Of a DNA stretch of 64,000 nucleotides, positions 10,698-17,231 are shown piece by piece. The DNA lies in contig NZ_JAPFGB010000002.1 of assembly GCF_026241095.1 (NCBI RefSeq), forward strand, positions 241,833-305,832, read 5' to 3'. The notes beneath the pieces were generated by a model, which saw only the letters and a program-made list of their open reading frames with translations, was not told where the DNA came from and ran no database searches. A program made the translations under genes and the position numbers. Every line of letters starts with the position of its first letter. The stretch's first letter is position 1. The stretch is from Saccharopolyspora sp. NFXS83. GTDB lineage: Bacteria > Actinomycetota > Actinomycetes > Mycobacteriales > Pseudonocardiaceae.

Positions 10698-11136
10698 TCT
10701 TATCACCACCATTCCCATTCTGAGCGCCGGAAGACTAACAGCCGAAGCCAGGCATCGCAGGACATGACGAAACCCTCACCGACAACGGAAACGCCTCGTC
10801 CGTCATATTCCACGAATGCGAAGTATTTTCGCGTGACAATCGCCCCCCTGAAACTCCTGGAGCAACCTTCCGGACACGCACGAACGGGCGCACTACCAGG
10901 ACGAGGACGATCTGCGGTGAATCCGAAAAAGCTTCGACCACCCCGAGTTGCACGCCCTCCTCGGCGACTGCAACATCGGTTCGCCCATTTCTGGACCGCC
11001 ATCGCACTGCCGAATCCTCGTGGAACCACCGGCACGATCGAGCCACTCAAAGCGGCCTGCAACCGGCTTTCCAGATCCCGCTTCCACGGCCCCTATGCAG
11101 AACAGCGCGGGATTAATCGAAATGGAGATCGCAGCA
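10698..11136. other. Divergent intergenic region, lower G+C than its surroundings
   Basis: About 440 bp between the dehydrogenase small subunit (minus) and the receiver-thioredoxin reductase pseudogene (plus). It is noticeably richer in A and T than neighbouring DNA and contains a small palindrome GCGAA-N5-TTCGC at 10818-10832. It should hold both promoters, but I found no convincing -35/-10 pair and no coding sequence. Confidence 0.35.
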
Positions 11137-12892
11137 ATGCGAATCGATGTGAACATGTACGTCGTCGCGGTGGAACCCGACGCCGCGCGAGCAGCGGAAC
11201 TGGCCCGGAGCATGGCGAACTGGGTCGGCGGCGACTGCCGGATCATCCGGGCCGCGGATGCCGCCGAGGCGCGGACGATCCTGAACCGCATGCCGAGCAC
11301 GGCCACCACACGAGTGCTGCTCGCCGCCGAGGACCTGGGCGGCGGAGCGTCCGGGATCGACTTCCTCAAGCAGATCAAGACCGAGCCGGTGGGCACCGGT
11401 CTCCGGCTGCGCGGCCTGCTCACCGCCAAGCCCCAAGAAGCCGGCGACGACGGGATCGTCCGCTTCGTCCCCGAACCGGACGGCGAAGCGCTGATGTACC
11501 ACTTCGTGCACCTGCTCCGCTCCGGCGGCACCGACGTGGCGGCCGTGCAGGTCGAAGGCCCCCCGCACGCCGCGCGGATGCAGCGGGTGAAGCGGTCCTG
11601 CAGCTGAACCGCGTGCCGTTCACGTTGCGGGAGAACAACGGGCAGAACGTCACCGTCCGGGTGGGACCCACTTGGAAGGCCGATCCTTCACCGCTGGAGC
11701 TGGCGAAGCTGCTGAACTTCGTCTCCCCGGACGAGAACATCGCGAACAAGGACTACGACCTCGTCATCGTGGGTGGTGGTCCTGCGGGCATGTCGACGGC
11801 CATCTCGGGCGCCGGGCTGGGCCTCACCACCCTCGTGCTGGAGGACGACGCGGTCGGCGGACAGGCGGGCACCAGCATCAACCGCATCGACAACCACTAC
11901 GGCTTTCCTGGCGGAGTGGCGGCATCCGACCTCGTGCAGCGCGGACTGAACCAGACGTTCAACCTCGACGCCCACGTCCTCCCCGGCCTGAGGGCCACCA
12001 AGATCGAGCAGCTCGCCACTCCGGCATCGCGGCGGTTCCGGGTGCACTGGCACGCCGAAGGTGAGCAGCCCGCAGTGGTGACCGCCGGGATCGTGGTGGT
12101 CGCCAGCGGACGCGTCCCGCGCCGCGTGATCCCGAAGGACGGCAGCGGAGCGAACAACGAGGACAAGTACGCCGACCGGGGCCTCTACTACGACGCAGTT
12201 TTAGCGGACGCCGACGCCACCGTCCGCGGCAAGCGGATCGCGATCGTGGGGGCAGGCGACACCGCCGGGCGCGCGGCCGTGATGTTCGCCCAGCACGGCG
12301 CCGGAGTCACCATGGTGGTCCGGGGCGAGTTCAGCATGGGGACCGCGCTGAAGAAGCAGATCGACGAACTCATGCAGCGGAAGCTCATCGTCCTGAAGCA
12401 GCCCTACGACGTCGTCGACTTCGCAGGTGACGACACCCACCTGACCCAGATCAAGATCAAGCACAAGGACGCGCGACCCGAGTCGCTCGACGTGGACCGG
12501 GTGTACGCCCTGATCGGCGGAGTGCCCAGCACGACCTGGCTCAACGATCTGGACGTGCGGTTCGGCAACAAGCTGCTGGACAAGAAGCGCTTCATCCGCA
12601 CCGAGCAACCCAACGAGGTGTTCGCCACGCCGTTGCCGATGCAGACCGTGGTCCCAGGGCTGTTCGCCATCGGCGACGTGCGCTCGCTGGCGTCGTGCAG
12701 CGCATCGCCCAAGCCGCCGGGCAAGGAGCCGCCGTCGCAGTGTCGATCGACCTGTACTTGAAGAAGTCCCCGGTGTCGACCCTCGCCGACCCGGCCGGTG
12801 CGGCGTTCGCCTACTACACGCCGCGGACGTCCGACCAGGACGTCGAAGTGCCAGGGCAGTCCGCCGCCGTCGACGACACCGCGAAAGCGTGA
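11137..12892 (+). pseudogene. Fused receiver / thioredoxin-reductase-like flavoprotein, broken by two frameshifts
   Basis: Three successive frames spell one protein. Frame A (11137-11607) encodes a receiver-like domain (MYVVAVEPDAARAAELARSM). Near 11596 one base is missing (after the codons for VKR), and the protein continues in another frame with a glutaredoxin-like segment QLNRVPFTLRENNG. An FAD/NAD(P) reductase follows: VIVGGGPAGMSTA, GGQAGTSINRI, then AIVGAGDTAGRAAVMFAQHG. Near 12687-12691 a second shift moves GDVRS into QRIAQAAGQGAAVAVSIDLYL. The reductase lacks the CxxC of classical thioredoxin reductases, as in other fused members of this family. A TTA leucine codon sits at 12201-12203. 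Start ATG 11137 has GGAG 9 nt upstream. Either a decayed gene or local sequence errors. Confidence 0.75.
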
Positions 12893-12956
12893 ACCGCGCG
12901 CGACCAGCGGCAGCCACGACGGGGAAAGCGCCGCGGGCGCCGGTAGCCTCGGCGGA

Positions 12957-13850
12957 ATGCCTGAAATCAACTTCAGTTCTCGTGTCGGCGTCTGGTGGAC
13001 CAGCGACCTGTGGCCGATCAACGACGTGATCGCCCGTGCCCGCGAGATCGAGCAGCTCGGGTACGCGTCGCTGTTCTACGGCGAAGCCGGCGGCAAGGAG
13101 ACCTTCACCCAGGCCGCTGCCCTGCTGGGCGGCACCGAGCGGCTCGTGGTCGGCACCGGCATCGCCAACATCCACGCCCGAAGCGCCCCGGCCAGCGAAA
13201 CCGCCTCCCGCACGCTCGGGGCGCTGCACCCGGGCCGGTTCGTGCTCGGGCTGGGAGTCAGCCACGCGCCGCTGGTGGAGCACAGCTACGCGGGCACCTA
13301 CGCCAAACCGCTGAGCACCATGCGCGACTACCTGCGGACCATGGACGCCGTCTCGGACGAGATCGAACCGAACGACCAGCGCCCGGCCCGGCTGCTGGCC
13401 GCGCTGGGACCGAAGATGATCGAGCTCTCCGGGACCGCCGCCGACGGGGCGCACCCGTACCTGGTGACTCCCGGGCAGACCGCGAGCACTCGGGAACAGC
13501 TCGGCCCGGACAAGTGGGTCGTCAGCGAGCAGGCGGTCGCCCTCACCACCGACCGGGAGACCGGCCTGCGGCGCGCGCACCAGCACCTGCACATGTACTC
13601 GCAGCTGCCGAACTACCAGAACTCCTGGCTGCGCCAGGGGTTCGACGAGTCCGACCTGGTCGTCGGCGGCTCCGAACGGTTGGCCGACGGCATGGTCGCC
13701 ATGGGCGACGCGGAGGCGCTCGCCGCGCACGTCAAGCGGCACCTGGACGCCGGTGCCGACCACGTGCTGGTCCAGGTCCTCGGCGACGACCAATCGGAGG
13801 ACCCGCTGCCCGTCCTCCGCGAACTGGCCCCGGCCCTGGGATTGAGCTGA
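12957..13850 (+). CDS. Probable F420-dependent LLM-class oxidoreductase
   Basis: 297-residue luciferase-fold enzyme. Its layout (GVWWTSDLWPIND near the N-terminus, GIANIHARSAPASE at about 63-76, HPGRFVLGLGVSHAPLVE at about 88-105, and C-terminal ADHVLVQVLGDDQSEDPLPVLRELAPAL) matches the actinobacterial F420-dependent subfamily typified by MSMEG_4141-like proteins (TIGR03620). The ATG at 12957 is 64 bp past the broken reductase. Only 93 bp separate it from the repeat-peptide gene on the same strand, so it may be read together with that locus. Substrate unknown. Confidence 0.75.
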   Translation: MPEINFSSRVGVWWTSDLWPINDVIARAREIEQLGYASLFYGEAGGKETFTQAAALLGGTERLVVGTGIANIHARSAPASETASRTLGALHPGRFVLGLGVSHAPLVEHSYAGTYAKPLSTMRDYLRTMDAVSDEIEPNDQRPARLLAALGPKMIELSGTAADGAHPYLVTPGQTASTREQLGPDKWVVSEQAVALTTDRETGLRRAHQHLHMYSQLPNYQNSWLRQGFDESDLVVGGSERLADGMVAMGDAEALAAHVKRHLDAGADHVLVQVLGDDQSEDPLPVLRELAPALGLS

Positions 13851-13943
13851 CGGTCCCTTTCGGGTCGGCGCGGCATGACGCGCGCCGGACCGGGGTACGC
13901 CGGAGGAACGTTGCTGTGGTCGGTCACAACACGAGGAGGATTC

Positions 13944-14237
13944 GTGGCACTCGACGACGATGACATCAGGACTTCCGACGGCGGCGGTGCCGAAGGCCCG
14001 GCCGACTCGGGCGCGGGCCGCGGCACCCCCGGACAGCACGACGGCGGCGCTGACGGCGGCGCCGATGGCGGCGCCGAAGGCCCGGCCGATTCCGGTGCGG
14101 GACAAGGCACTCCCGGTCAGCACGACGGCGGCGCCGACGGCAGCGCCGAAGGGCCTGCGGACTCCGGCACCGGCCGCGGCACCCCCGGACAGCACGACGG
14201 CGGCGCCGACGGCGGAGCGGACAGCGGTGCCCGCTGA
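13944..14237 (+). CDS. Tandem-repeat Asp/Gly/Ala-rich peptide, candidate RiPP-like precursor
   Basis: 97 residues starting at GTG 13944, with a very strong GAGGAGGA 3 nt upstream. The first 15 residues (ALDDDDIRTSDGGG after Met) look like a short acidic leader. The rest is three near-identical units: residues 16-43, 44-67 and 68-95. Each begins AEGPADSG, continues G(R/Q)GTPGQHDGG and ends in ADGG-type triplets. Every unit has exactly one His, in the context GQHDGG, and there is no Cys. No signal peptide or membrane segment. The 3' end overlaps the oxygenase start by 11 nt, so the two are translationally coupled. I do not recognise a characterised homologue; the precursor role is inferred from repeats and neighbours. 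A structural or metal-binding acidic peptide is the alternative. Confidence 0.65.
   Translation: MALDDDDIRTSDGGGAEGPADSGAGRGTPGQHDGGADGGADGGAEGPADSGAGQGTPGQHDGGADGSAEGPADSGTGRGTPGQHDGGADGGADSGAR
13989..14228 (+). repeat. Three in-frame tandem repeats (84, 72 and 84 bp) inside the peptide gene
   Basis: Units at 13989-14072, 14073-14144 and 14145-14228 are nearly identical at DNA level (for example CCGGACAGCACGACGGCGGC is repeated), and unit 2 lacks 12 bp encoding one ADGG-type quartet. The similarity points to recent duplication, and unit number is likely to vary between strains. Confidence 0.85.
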
Positions 14238-15483
14238 GCTCAGCGAACCAGCGGAGAGCGCCGCCGCTCCCCCGGCGGCGCTGGCGCGGGTGGTCGGCCC
14301 GGACGTGGACGGGTTCGGCGACCGGCACTGGGGACGCGAGCCGTTGCTGGTGCGGGGCGCCGATCCCGACGCCTTCCGTGACGTGCTCGACCTCGACGGG
14401 GTCGATGAACTGCTCTCGCGCCGGGGCCTGCGCACGCCGTTCCTGCGGCTCGCGCGGGAAGGCGCGGTGGTCGGCTCCGAGTGGTTCACCGGCTCCGGCG
14501 GGGTCGGCGCGGAGATCGGCGACCAGGTGCGCGACGACAAGGTGGCCGCGCTCTTCGGCGAAGGCACCACGGTGGTGCTGCAGGCGCTGCACCGGACCTG
14601 GTCCGGCGTCATCGACTTCACCGCGGCGCTCGCCGAGGAGCTCGGGCATCCCGTGCAGGCCAACGCTTACGTGACACCGCCGTCCTCGCGCGGGTTCTCC
14701 GCGCACTACGACGTGCACGACGTGTTCGTGCTCCAGCTCGCCGGGCGCAAGCACTGGACGGTGCACGCTCCCGTGCACGCCGACCCGCTGCGCGATCAGC
14801 CCTGGAACGACCACGCCCGCGCGGTGGCCGACCGCGCCCGCGAGACCCCGCCCGAGATCGACACCGCGCTGGAGCCGGGCGACGCGATGTACGTGCCGCG
14901 CGGCTGGCTGCACGCCGCGACCGCGCTCGGCGACGTCTCGGCGCACCTGACGGTGGGCGTGCACGTGCTCACCCGGTTCGCGCTGGTGGAAGCGCTGACC
15001 GCGCTCTGCGCGCAGGACCAGGACCTGCGCGCCTCGCTGCCGCTGGGCATCGACGTGGCCGACCCGGCGCAACTCGCCCCGCACCTGGATTCGGTGCGCT
15101 CGGCGCTGACCGACGCGCTGCGGGACGTGTCCGCCGACGCCGTCGCACGCCGCGTCCGCGACGCGGTCTGGTCGGGTGGGCGGCCCGAGCCGGTGCGACC
15201 GGTGGCCGGTGCCGCGTTCGCCGAAGGCCTGGCGGCGGGTGACGCCGTGCGACGGCGCACCGGGTTGCACCACCGGCTGCTGGAGCAGGACGACGAGGTG
15301 GTGCTGGAGCTGCCGGACCGACGGCTCGCGCTGCCCGCGGCGACGGCGGTGCCGCTGCGGGCGCTGCTCGCCGGCGGCACGGTCCGCGTGGGAGAGCTGC
15401 CGGGAGCCGACGAGGCCGACCAGGTGGTGCTGGTGCGCCGACTGCTGCGGGAAGGCGTGCTCGTACCGGCCACCACGCCGTGA
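14227..15483 (+). CDS. JmjC-like cupin (Cupin_4) 2-oxoglutarate/Fe(II) oxygenase
   Basis: 418-residue member of the cupin_4/ribosomal-oxygenase family (YcfD, MINA53, NO66 relatives), which hydroxylate Arg or His side chains of proteins. The iron ligands are visible as H160-x-D162 (SAHYDVHD) and H229 (RGWLHAA), with VFVLQLAGRKHW between them. The C-terminal third (ELPDRRLALPAATAVPLRALL, then LVRRLLREGVL) resembles the winged-helix dimer/substrate domain of this family. GTG 14227 has GGAG 9 nt upstream and lies inside the last codons of the repeat-peptide gene; the stop overlaps the next start (GTGA). The tight coupling suggests the repeat peptide is its substrate, possibly at the single His of each repeat. 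That assignment is inference. Confidence 0.8.
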   Translation: MPAELSEPAESAAAPPAALARVVGPDVDGFGDRHWGREPLLVRGADPDAFRDVLDLDGVDELLSRRGLRTPFLRLAREGAVVGSEWFTGSGGVGAEIGDQVRDDKVAALFGEGTTVVLQALHRTWSGVIDFTAALAEELGHPVQANAYVTPPSSRGFSAHYDVHDVFVLQLAGRKHWTVHAPVHADPLRDQPWNDHARAVADRARETPPEIDTALEPGDAMYVPRGWLHAATALGDVSAHLTVGVHVLTRFALVEALTALCAQDQDLRASLPLGIDVADPAQLAPHLDSVRSALTDALRDVSADAVARRVRDAVWSGGRPEPVRPVAGAAFAEGLAAGDAVRRRTGLHHRLLEQDDEVVLELPDRRLALPAATAVPLRALLAGGTVRVGELPGADEADQVVLVRRLLREGVLVPATTP

Positions 15484-16361
15484 CGGGGCCGCCCGCACCG
15501 ATCTGGCCGCGCTGCTCGTTCGTCGCCCAGGCCGCGGGTGATCCGCTGGAGGGCTCCGCGCCGCCCGCCGACCGCTGGTTCCTGATCGAACACCCCGGAC
15601 CGTGGGGGCGCGACGGTCTGACCGAATCAGGTCTCGACCCCGACGTCGTCGCCGCGCTGTCCGAGTGGGGGACCGCGTGGAACGCGCGCTTGGTCCTCGT
15701 GCGCCGACCGGAACGCGCTGCCCGCAGCGGGTCGACCCGCCAGTGGTTCCGCGTGGATTCCCGTCCCGGTCACGAGTCGATCCGCGCCGGGCAGTTCACC
15801 GCGGACGCCGAACTACCGGCCGCCGCGCACTCCCCCGGCGAGATCGTCGAGGGACCGCTGAACCTGGTCTGCGCCCACGGCAGGCACGACACCTGCTGCG
15901 CGGTGCGCGGTCGCCCGGTGGCGGCGGCGCTCGCGGCGACCGCGCCGGGACGCACCTGGGAATGCAGCCACGTCGGTGGCTGCCGGTTCGCGCCCGCGCT
16001 GGTCCTGCTGCCGCACGGCTACCTCCTCGGCGGCGTTCCGGTACCGGACGCGGTCGAGGCCGTGCGGCACTACCGCGCGGGGAGCCTCGATCCGCGTTGG
16101 GTCCGCGGCCGGACCTCGCTCCCGCCCGCGGCGCAGGCCGCGCAGCACCACGCGCGGGCGGTGACCGGGAAAACCGGGATCGACGCGCTGCGCATGATCG
16201 GCGTCGAATCCGACGGGGCGGACGGCTGGCGGGTGGAACTCGCCGAGCCCGCCTGCACGGTGCTGCTGCGCGAGCGGTGGATCGACACCGGACGTCCACT
16301 GACCTGCGCCGCGACCGCACCGGGCCGGATGCGCGTGTTCGACCTCGTGGCGCTCCGGTAG
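15480..16361 (+). CDS. Sucrase/ferredoxin-like (Suc_Fer) thioredoxin-fold protein
   Basis: 293-residue protein of the sucrase/ferredoxin-like family (PF06999), a thioredoxin-fold [2Fe-2S] group. Candidate cluster ligands are in CAHGRHDTCCAVRGRPVA and WECSHVGGCRFAPA; the paired CC and the C-x5-C spacing are typical. The C-terminal part ends with a compact beta domain. Start GTG 15480 overlaps the oxygenase stop by 4 nt, so expression is coupled. A redox partner feeding electrons to, or acting after, the oxygenase is plausible but unproven. No transmembrane segment. Confidence 0.75.
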   Translation: MTGPPAPIWPRCSFVAQAAGDPLEGSAPPADRWFLIEHPGPWGRDGLTESGLDPDVVAALSEWGTAWNARLVLVRRPERAARSGSTRQWFRVDSRPGHESIRAGQFTADAELPAAAHSPGEIVEGPLNLVCAHGRHDTCCAVRGRPVAAALAATAPGRTWECSHVGGCRFAPALVLLPHGYLLGGVPVPDAVEAVRHYRAGSLDPRWVRGRTSLPPAAQAAQHHARAVTGKTGIDALRMIGVESDGADGWRVELAEPACTVLLRERWIDTGRPLTCAATAPGRMRVFDLVALR

Positions 16362-16682: not shown

Positions 16683-17231
16683 ATGCCCAGGTATTCGATG
16701 ACGACCGCGCTCGCGGGTGCGGCGACCGCGGTTCTGCTGGTGGCGGGTGCGCCGCTGGCCGGCGCCGTCTCCAGCGACTACGCCGAACCCCGCGTCGTCA
16801 CCTACGACGCCAGCCAGGCCGAGGAGTTCCAGGCCGCCATCGACGAGGCCGCCGAGGTGTGGAACGGCCAGCTCACCAACGTCAAACTGGAGAAGTCCAC
16901 CGGCGGCGAAGCCGACCTCACCGTGCTCGCCGACGACGAATGGCCGCGCGCGCAAACCGAATCCCTCGGCGTCGGCACGGTGTGGATGGGACGTCAGGCC
17001 GTCAACGAAGGTCACCACATCCCGCGCATCGCCACCCACGAGATCGGGCACATCTTCGGGCTGCCCGACGACCGGACCGGTGTCTGCGAAGACCTGATGT
17101 CCGGGGCGAGCGCCGGGACCGGCTGCAAGAACAACCTCGCCAACCCCGAGGAGAAGGCCCAGATCGAGGAGAACTTCGCGCAGGGAGCGGAAATCGAACC
17201 CCGCCTGTTCACCGAAGCCCCTGCTCGTTGA
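16683..17231 (+). CDS. snpA: Snapalysin-family secreted zinc metalloprotease
   Basis: 182-residue secreted protease of family M7. A signal peptide covers about residues 1-28 (hydrophobic core TALAGAATAVLLVAGAPLAG, cleavage after an Ala near GAVS). The active site HExxHxxGxxD is H119-E120-x2-H123-x2-G126-x2-D129 (HEIGHIFGLPD). The first two His and the Asp bind zinc and Glu is the catalytic base in characterised snapalysins. Two Cys (VCEDLMSG and GCKNN) can form the conserved disulfide. GGAGGAG lies 4 nt before the ATG. Extends with a short acidic tail EEKAQIEENFAQGAEIEP. Monocistronic by appearance. Confidence 0.9.
   Translation: MPRYSMTTALAGAATAVLLVAGAPLAGAVSSDYAEPRVVTYDASQAEEFQAAIDEAAEVWNGQLTNVKLEKSTGGEADLTVLADDEWPRAQTESLGVGTVWMGRQAVNEGHHIPRIATHEIGHIFGLPDDRTGVCEDLMSGASAGTGCKNNLANPEEKAQIEENFAQGAEIEPRLFTEAPAR

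Follow-up and report, generated by a model that had tools for sequence, protein, structure and literature searches.

A recurrent actinobacterial operon of an aspartate-repeat peptide, a JmjC oxygenase and a Suc_Fer protein that may form a peptide-modification system

The present study deals with three coupled genes in a stretch of 64,000 nucleotides from Saccharopolyspora sp. NFXS83 (RefSeq assembly GCF_026241095.1, contig NZ_JAPFGB010000002.1, positions 241,833 to 305,832), the whole of which is called the window here. Read directly from the sequence, the genes follow one another on the + strand in the order repeat peptide, JmjC oxygenase and Suc_Fer-like protein. The peptide gene overlaps the JmjC gene by 11 nt, which in turn overlaps the Suc_Fer gene by 4 nt (Table 1). 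An earlier note on this DNA had claimed the trio with these coordinates and overlaps, and direct reading bears it out. The same is true of the 97-residue peptide, which was described there as a short acidic leader followed by three near-identical units with one GQHDGG each. After the start codon the peptide begins ALDDDDIRTSDGGGA, and its acidic leader holds ALDDDDIRT. The repeat array was also detected by Tandem Repeats Finder, with periods of 72 and 84. From the gene order and the translational overlaps, the precursor, the enzyme and the helper would seem to be produced jointly; a promoter and terminator scan found none.

Table 1. Features of the locus, in coordinates of the window
Feature	Position	Strand	Remarks
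Shine-Dalgarno-like GAGGAGG	13933..13939	+	4 nt 5' of the peptide GTG; read from the sequence
Asp/Gly/Ala repeat precursor peptide, 97 residues	13944..14237 (stop included)	+	GTG start, TGA stop; coding selection, relatives
Leader MALDDDDIRTSDGGGA	13944..13991	+	its DDDDIRT fits the family leader motif
Core unit 1, 28 residues, EGPADSGAGRGTPGQHDGGADGGADGGA	13992..14075	+	
Core unit 2, 24 residues	14076..14147	+	
Core unit 3, 29 residues	14148..14234	+	
JmjC_2 (PF08007) Fe(II)/2-oxoglutarate oxygenase, 418 aa	14227..15483	+	GTG start, TGA stop; ribosomal-oxygenase-like architecture
HxD iron-ligand motif (H160, D162)	14704..14712	+	both kept in 114/114
K175, position of the presumed 2-oxoglutarate-binding Lys	14749..14751	+	Lys in 113/114
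Third iron ligand H229	14911..14913	+	His in 113/114, gap in one
C-terminal winged-helix region	15244..15468	+	AlphaFold2 secondary structure; aligned to the end of NO66/MINA53/YcfD
Suc_Fer-like (PF06999) protein, 293 aa	15480..16361	+	GTG start; thioredoxin-like [2Fe-2S] ferredoxin by model
Predicted cluster-binding region C131-x8-C140-x23-H164-x-G-G-C168	15870..15983	+	from alignment; Apd1/Aim32 motif as in the accessible part of PMC11138216

The window peptide has no Pfam or NCBIfam match, and eight precursors match no NCBIfam model above its cut-off. The coding status of the frame was judged from codon differences. As compared to its nearest relative (locus L003), the window peptide differs by 20 synonymous codons and 2 non-synonymous ones, and 20 of the 23 base substitutions fall on codon position 3; the possible single changes would split 230 synonymous to 634 non-synonymous. 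In the other two frames the same counts are 0:22 and 2:19. Synonymous changes outnumbered non-synonymous ones in 9 of 9 equal-length precursor pairs with at least 80% identity, the above pair included and the weakest at 11:6; the pairs share sequences, and not all of them are independent. The dominance of synonymous codon differences indicates that the peptide frame is translated and under selection at the protein level.

All 6 genomes of the genus that were searched have the oxygenase, and a JmjC match is present in 72 of 150 genomes of the family (E <= 0.001, distant relatives included) and in 58 of 396 genomes of the phylum (E <= 1e-20); the window enzyme is the sole JmjC_2 match in its own genome. 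Loci were taken from a family search (30 returned and 20 fetched stretches), a phylum search (30 and 20) and a scan of named genomes (18), leaving out weaker matches, and removal of near-copies reduced 119 JmjC loci to 114 distinct ones. It was found that an Asp-rich open reading frame (ORF) ends at most 500 bp upstream at 93 of these 114 loci, as compared to none of 481 control ORFs. In the test loci the upstream ORF could run as far as 130 nt beyond the start of the HMM (hidden Markov model) match; for the controls the limit was 40 nt beyond the ORF start. The controls were ORFs of at least 250 aa, taken from the window and from those loci that are longer than 5 kb, spurious frames among them. 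A stricter precursor test with poorer removal of duplicates gave 63/117 loci and 0/432 controls and missed plain precursors, including that of the window; the threshold was relaxed after this result had been seen, and the controls stand at 0 under both. One counted precursor (L094) is doubtful. A Suc_Fer gene lies at most 400 bp downstream at 86 of the 114 JmjC loci and at 82 of the 93 precursor loci. Co-occurrence elsewhere had been set beforehand as a test of the trio, and these counts speak for it: the operon is well supported and recurs across the actinobacteria searched.

The conserved neighbourhood appears to go little beyond these genes. Among 20 loci with flanks of about 8 kb, JmjC was present in 20 and Suc_Fer in 18, and the next family was met in 5, at scattered places. 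A larger cluster was considered and rejected; in the 18 named-genome loci, neighbours common beyond the trio are mostly confined to Pseudonocardia or Kribbella-type loci. A plasmid search returned 140 records with a JmjC relative, none of which covered 80% of the query and all of which were below 60% identity.

The upstream ORFs share a common plan. Of the 93, 84 have a leader motif that follows the pattern L-[DNST]-[DE]-[DE]-[DE]-[IM]-x-T (found with a looser regular expression), and in the cores delimited in those 84, Asp occurs in 84, Cys in none and Arg in 49. Aromatic residues are rare in these cores (Tyr in 5, Trp in 12 and Phe in 4 of 84), and the residue after core Asp is mostly Gly, Ala or Ser. 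Units number from 2 to 7 per precursor. Two core types predominate: in the tree set, 52 precursors have DGGA repeats like those of the window and 35 have DxD repeats, for instance DADGTDADGTDA. Their distribution was followed on a tree of 113 JmjC proteins, which was built by a quick method, has long outer branches and leaves out L096 as too short; labels of precursor type were assigned by regular-expression count. The DGGA type falls in one enzyme clade (52/54 rows, SH-aLRT branch support 99) and the DxD type in another (35/38 rows, SH-aLRT 98). The labels need 9 changes on the tree, against a mean of 51.3 when shuffled. The labels cluster by clade, and therefore the kind of precursor tracks the kind of enzyme. 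Two marks of a ribosomally synthesized and post-translationally modified peptide (RiPP) are found here, namely a translated precursor gene beside an enzyme of modifying type, and a conserved leader followed by a variable core that differs in repeat type and unit number.

Some loci carry peptides of other kinds. L089, within the DxD clade, has an odd core of SADGTDQGVxGGTYGPRDA repeats and no Suc_Fer within its available flanks. The outlying loci L060, L061, L062, L064 and L065 have JmjC and Suc_Fer together with AVDRGKANGAxxDNDGND-like peptides of 40-44 residues, which make up a third type of precursor, and GDSGENKDG-like peptides stand beside JmjC in the outlying L066 and L069. FVIADNDPSDP-type peptides with a similar acidic leader lie directly before JmjC in L057 and in L142 (3757-3903, a Streptomyces clavuligerus plasmid), and they are probably another precursor type. 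A cyanobacterial JmjC relative has a LanM gene about 3 kb away, and an actinobacterial relative (L029) is preceded by a putative thiopeptide-type, SpaB-like ORF. These outlying relatives fit a wider family of RiPP-associated JmjC enzymes.

The window enzyme matches Pfam JmjC_2 (PF08007) with 91.2 bits against a cut-off of 22 (E 4.8e-26), and 23 of 23 alignment members match this family. The retention of H160, D162 and H229, which the earlier note had pointed out, is confirmed in the sequence; alignment numbering runs one higher (H161, D163, K176, H230), since the translation used there starts a codon ahead of the GTG. K175 is presumably the 2-oxoglutarate (2OG)-binding Lys, as in MINA53 and NO66. 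In structure alignments of the AlphaFold2 model, the predicted full-length architecture is that of the ribosomal oxygenases NO66 (RIOX1), MINA53 (RIOX2) and YcfD, with which the enzyme shares the JmjC_2 domain, the residues for Fe and 2OG, and a C-terminal winged helix. Those enzymes hydroxylate His or Arg of ribosomal proteins, whereas the window enzyme adjoins genes for an Asp-repeat peptide and a ferredoxin-like protein and has a patchy distribution. The predicted strands and helices of the winged-helix region resemble the topology of a RiPP recognition element (RRE). It could be a candidate leader-binding, RRE-like domain; RRE-like folds are also spoken of for related proteins in the accessible part of PMC12710340. 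PqqD was not among the Pfam families matched by the 23 members, and there was one weak match to ROXA-like_wH (E 0.045).

The Suc_Fer protein of the window matches Suc_Fer-like PF06999 with 57.5 bits against a cut-off of 34.9 (E 2.4e-15). Its model has a mean pLDDT (predicted local distance difference test) of 90.7, and the six best Foldseek rows are all chains of the Aquifex thioredoxin-like [2Fe-2S] ferredoxin (best 1m2a), with probability 1.00 and a target TM (template modelling) score of up to 0.74. A profile search points to the same Aquifex-type ferredoxin (E 0.0021). C131, C139, C140 and H164 are kept in 86 of 86 Suc_Fer proteins. According to the accessible parts of PMC8482512 and PMC11138216, the bis-His prototypes Apd1 and Aim32 bind their cluster via C-x8-C-xn-H-x-G-G-H. 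The window protein resembles them and the Aquifex-type ferredoxins in its family, in the C-x8-C and H-x-G-G spacing and in the 1m2a fold match. The full motif is not found, however. The first three ligand positions are there in 86/86, but position 168 (window 15981-15983), where the motif has its last His, is Asp in 69/86 and Cys in 17/86, the window among the latter, and never His. Should this residue be a ligand of the cluster, the alignment predicts the set to be Cys2-His-Asp or, in the window, Cys3-His.

As to the residue acted upon, our data point to core Asp as the most likely target, because among the residues plausible for a JmjC hydroxylase only Asp occurs in all delimited cores. Within the DGGA type, 179 of 182 units retain the Asp of G[P]AD.

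On balance we lean towards a RiPP-like operon in which the JmjC enzyme hydroxylates core Asp of a leader-bearing precursor, with the ferredoxin as a helper. The precursor would be the 97-residue peptide, in which a short acidic leader comes before the Asp-rich units of the core, arranged in tandem. Its leader would be held by the JmjC protein, probably via the C-terminal winged helix. With Fe(II), 2OG and O2 the enzyme would then hydroxylate core Asp at one or more places in each unit, the beta carbon being the likeliest site. The Suc_Fer protein could be playing the part of a thioredoxin-like [2Fe-2S] ferredoxin helper, for example by keeping the oxygenase iron as Fe(II) or by reducing it to that state after oxidation. 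Such a reaction would yield an acidic peptide that is rich in hydroxyaspartate and binds metals. This peptide may remain inside the cell or be processed by general enzymes, since no recurring exporter or protease was found in the 20 loci. Hydroxyaspartate binds metals well, and therefore a role in metal handling is the preferred guess. A multi-core precursor with a dedicated oxygenase had been put forward in the earlier note as the simplest reading, and the Asp-rich upstream ORF at 93 of 114 loci supports it.

A more sweeping proposal can be offered only tentatively, and we rather doubt it as a whole. It holds that an Actinomycetota-wide RiPP-like class converts simple encoded Asp repeats into poly-(beta-hydroxyaspartyl) peptides and so makes metal-binding acidic polymers by a ribosomal route, that the JmjC enzyme is driven or protected by a [2Fe-2S] protein with an unusual Cys2-His-Asp or Cys3-His ligand set, and that this enzyme shares its ancestry with the ribosomal oxygenases and reads leaders by its winged helix.

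Several observations weigh against hydroxylation of core Asp with a ferredoxin as helper. By the 400-bp rule 11 of the 93 precursor loci lack Suc_Fer, the Pseudonocardia loci L034 and L035 among them. Two that were counted so, L096 and L083, do show a match in another search (296.9 and 25.0 bits), leaving at most 9 without it nearby. The idea of the ferredoxin-like protein as an obligatory partner is weakened by these counts. 2OG oxygenases need no ferredoxin. The fold match of the Suc_Fer protein extends over some 100 of its 293 residues; the best E value is 4.7e-3, and no hit reaches E <= 0.001. No ORF passes the Asp-rich test at 21 of the 114 JmjC loci; two of these (L009, L100) are cut by a contig end and several carry other short Asp-bearing ORFs. 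Furthermore, within flanks of about 8 kb no family of proteases or exporters is common to the majority of the 20 loci, which is unusual for a secreted RiPP. The closest folds of the oxygenase are His and Arg hydroxylases. Gly and Ala, which are unlikely targets for the JmjC hydroxylase class, are as constant as Asp (each in 52/52 DGGA-type and 35/35 DxD-type precursors), and conservation of Asp is equally to be expected of an unmodified acidic peptide.

Of the other explanations, the one that survives best keeps the JmjC enzyme at or beside Asp and gives it a different reaction, namely oxidative backbone cleavage, desaturation, cross-linking or macrocyclisation, for which the ferredoxin supplies electrons. 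It would then be easier to see why the system has a redox protein of its own. Related chemistry in RiPPs is on record, as the accessible part of PMC12636437 describes oxidative backbone cleavage by a HEXXH-type alpha-ketoglutarate enzyme and that of PMC12710340 cites, by title, macrocyclisation by a 2OG enzyme. We nevertheless regard a different reaction as fairly unlikely, given that the nearest folds and the known relatives are hydroxylases and that the cores have no Cys and mostly no aromatic residues.

It is improbable that the enzyme is simply the ribosomal oxygenase of these bacteria, with the acidic peptide as its regulator or inhibitor rather than its substrate. The match in full-length architecture and its standing as the sole JmjC_2 match in the genome are in favour of such a role. 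On the other hand the distribution is patchy at both the phylum level (58/396) and the family level (72/150), precursor type follows enzyme clade as expected of an enzyme and its substrate, and a unit number that varies from 2 to 7 suits a substrate better. We give just as little credence to the view that the peptide is an unmodified, disordered acidic protein, serving for instance to buffer metals or cations, and has nothing but the operon in common with the enzyme. Its composition and low complexity would be in keeping with this; however, the leader is conserved and distinct from the repeats in 84 of 93 precursors, coupling to the oxygenase is tight across the set, and here too the tracking of enzyme clade by precursor type argues otherwise.

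The earlier note had looked first to His as the modified residue, and this was not borne out. Hydroxylation of the His of each GQHDGG, as by NO66 and MINA53, would accord with the best folds, which are His hydroxylases, and His does precede the DGGAD block in 89 of 167 blocks. By regular expression, the other 78 have S, A, T, Q, G, E or a further residue at that place. His is missing from the HDGG place in 16 of 52 DGGA-type precursors and from the whole core in 30 of 35 of the DxD type, yet the active-site residues of the enzyme are unchanged. Conservation across the two types rejects His as a general target, and its hydroxylation in the window peptide is judged very unlikely. That the repeat ORF is a mere by-product of GC-rich DNA, in which long spurious frames are indeed present here, is practically dismissed by the 20:2 synonymous to non-synonymous count with a synonymous majority in eight further pairs, and by the absence of such an upstream ORF from all 481 controls.

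If core Asp hydroxylation is taken up again as the preferred reading, parts of it have precedents. JmjC or cupin-type ornithine hydroxylases (BipG, BpmG, PbsQ) are known from biphenomycin-type RiPPs (PMC12707348 and PMC12257519, in the parts accessible), and as in our proposal a JmjC-type 2OG oxygenase hydroxylates a residue within a ribosomal precursor peptide. They differ in belonging to larger clusters, with an MNIO (multinuclear non-haem iron-dependent oxidative enzyme), arginase activity and a B12 radical S-adenosylmethionine (SAM) enzyme, and in acting on one Orn in a short aromatic motif; those parts of the papers describe no Asp repeats or Suc_Fer. In the 20 loci compared here no family besides JmjC and Suc_Fer was present in more than 5, a comparison that included no search aimed at MNIO or B12 radical SAM enzymes. 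Beta-hydroxylation of Asp in a RiPP precursor is carried out by PesHI, an MNIO with its partner, in the nitrilobacillin pathway (PMC13060819, accessible part), which differs in enzyme class, in its single Asp and in the nitrile formation that follows. The accessible part of PMC12710340 remarks on fish and algal JmjC (PF08007) proteins with RRE-like folds, whose closest bacterial homologues lie in RiPP-like contexts; no precursor, ferredoxin partner or system is described there. Nothing on the trio was found in the accessible parts of PMC7794033 and PMC6006756.

The literature searched, from which subscription papers were mostly absent, holds no description of Asp-repeat precursors with a JmjC enzyme of ribosomal-oxygenase type and Suc_Fer, and five repeat strings searched inside papers returned 0 papers. 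The claim of no characterised counterpart stands for the trio in that literature and fails for JmjC hydroxylases of RiPP precursors, of which BipG and PbsQ are examples. What is already known is JmjC hydroxylation of RiPP precursors at Orn and MNIO beta-hydroxylation of Asp; what appears to be new is the combination of Asp repeats, JmjC and Suc_Fer. Such precursors may have been passed over because they are short, of low complexity and without a Pfam (window peptide) or NCBIfam (eight precursors) match above cut-off. The trio seems to represent a means, so far little noticed, of modifying an acidic peptide that is encoded by a gene, most likely on its aspartates. If the proposal is true, one oxygenase family is tied to a large, simple and readily testable set of substrates, Asp repeats of different spacing. 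How JmjC enzymes select their targets, how the winged helix recognises a leader and what the little-understood Suc_Fer proteins of bacteria are used for would be opened to experiment, and a further genetically encoded source of hydroxyaspartate-rich peptides would be at hand.

The window neighbours that were scanned are an LLM oxidoreductase, an M7 protease and methionine aminopeptidase. Further upstream, the translation of 10948-12892 (+) reads like a thioredoxin reductase whose N-terminal part resembles a response regulator; the gene is apparently broken up into different frames around 11.6 kb and 12.7 kb, by real decay or assembly error. The gene 5' of the peptide (12798-13850, +) codes for an F420-dependent LLM oxidoreductase (TIGR03620, 323.8 bits against a cut-off of 219.8) and is separated from the peptide GTG by a gap of 93 nt. 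Downstream lies a small snapalysin-like M7 metalloprotease (16683-17231, +; PF02031, E 6.7e-20), which is also present, within the available flanks, in 2 of 5 other Saccharopolyspora loci.

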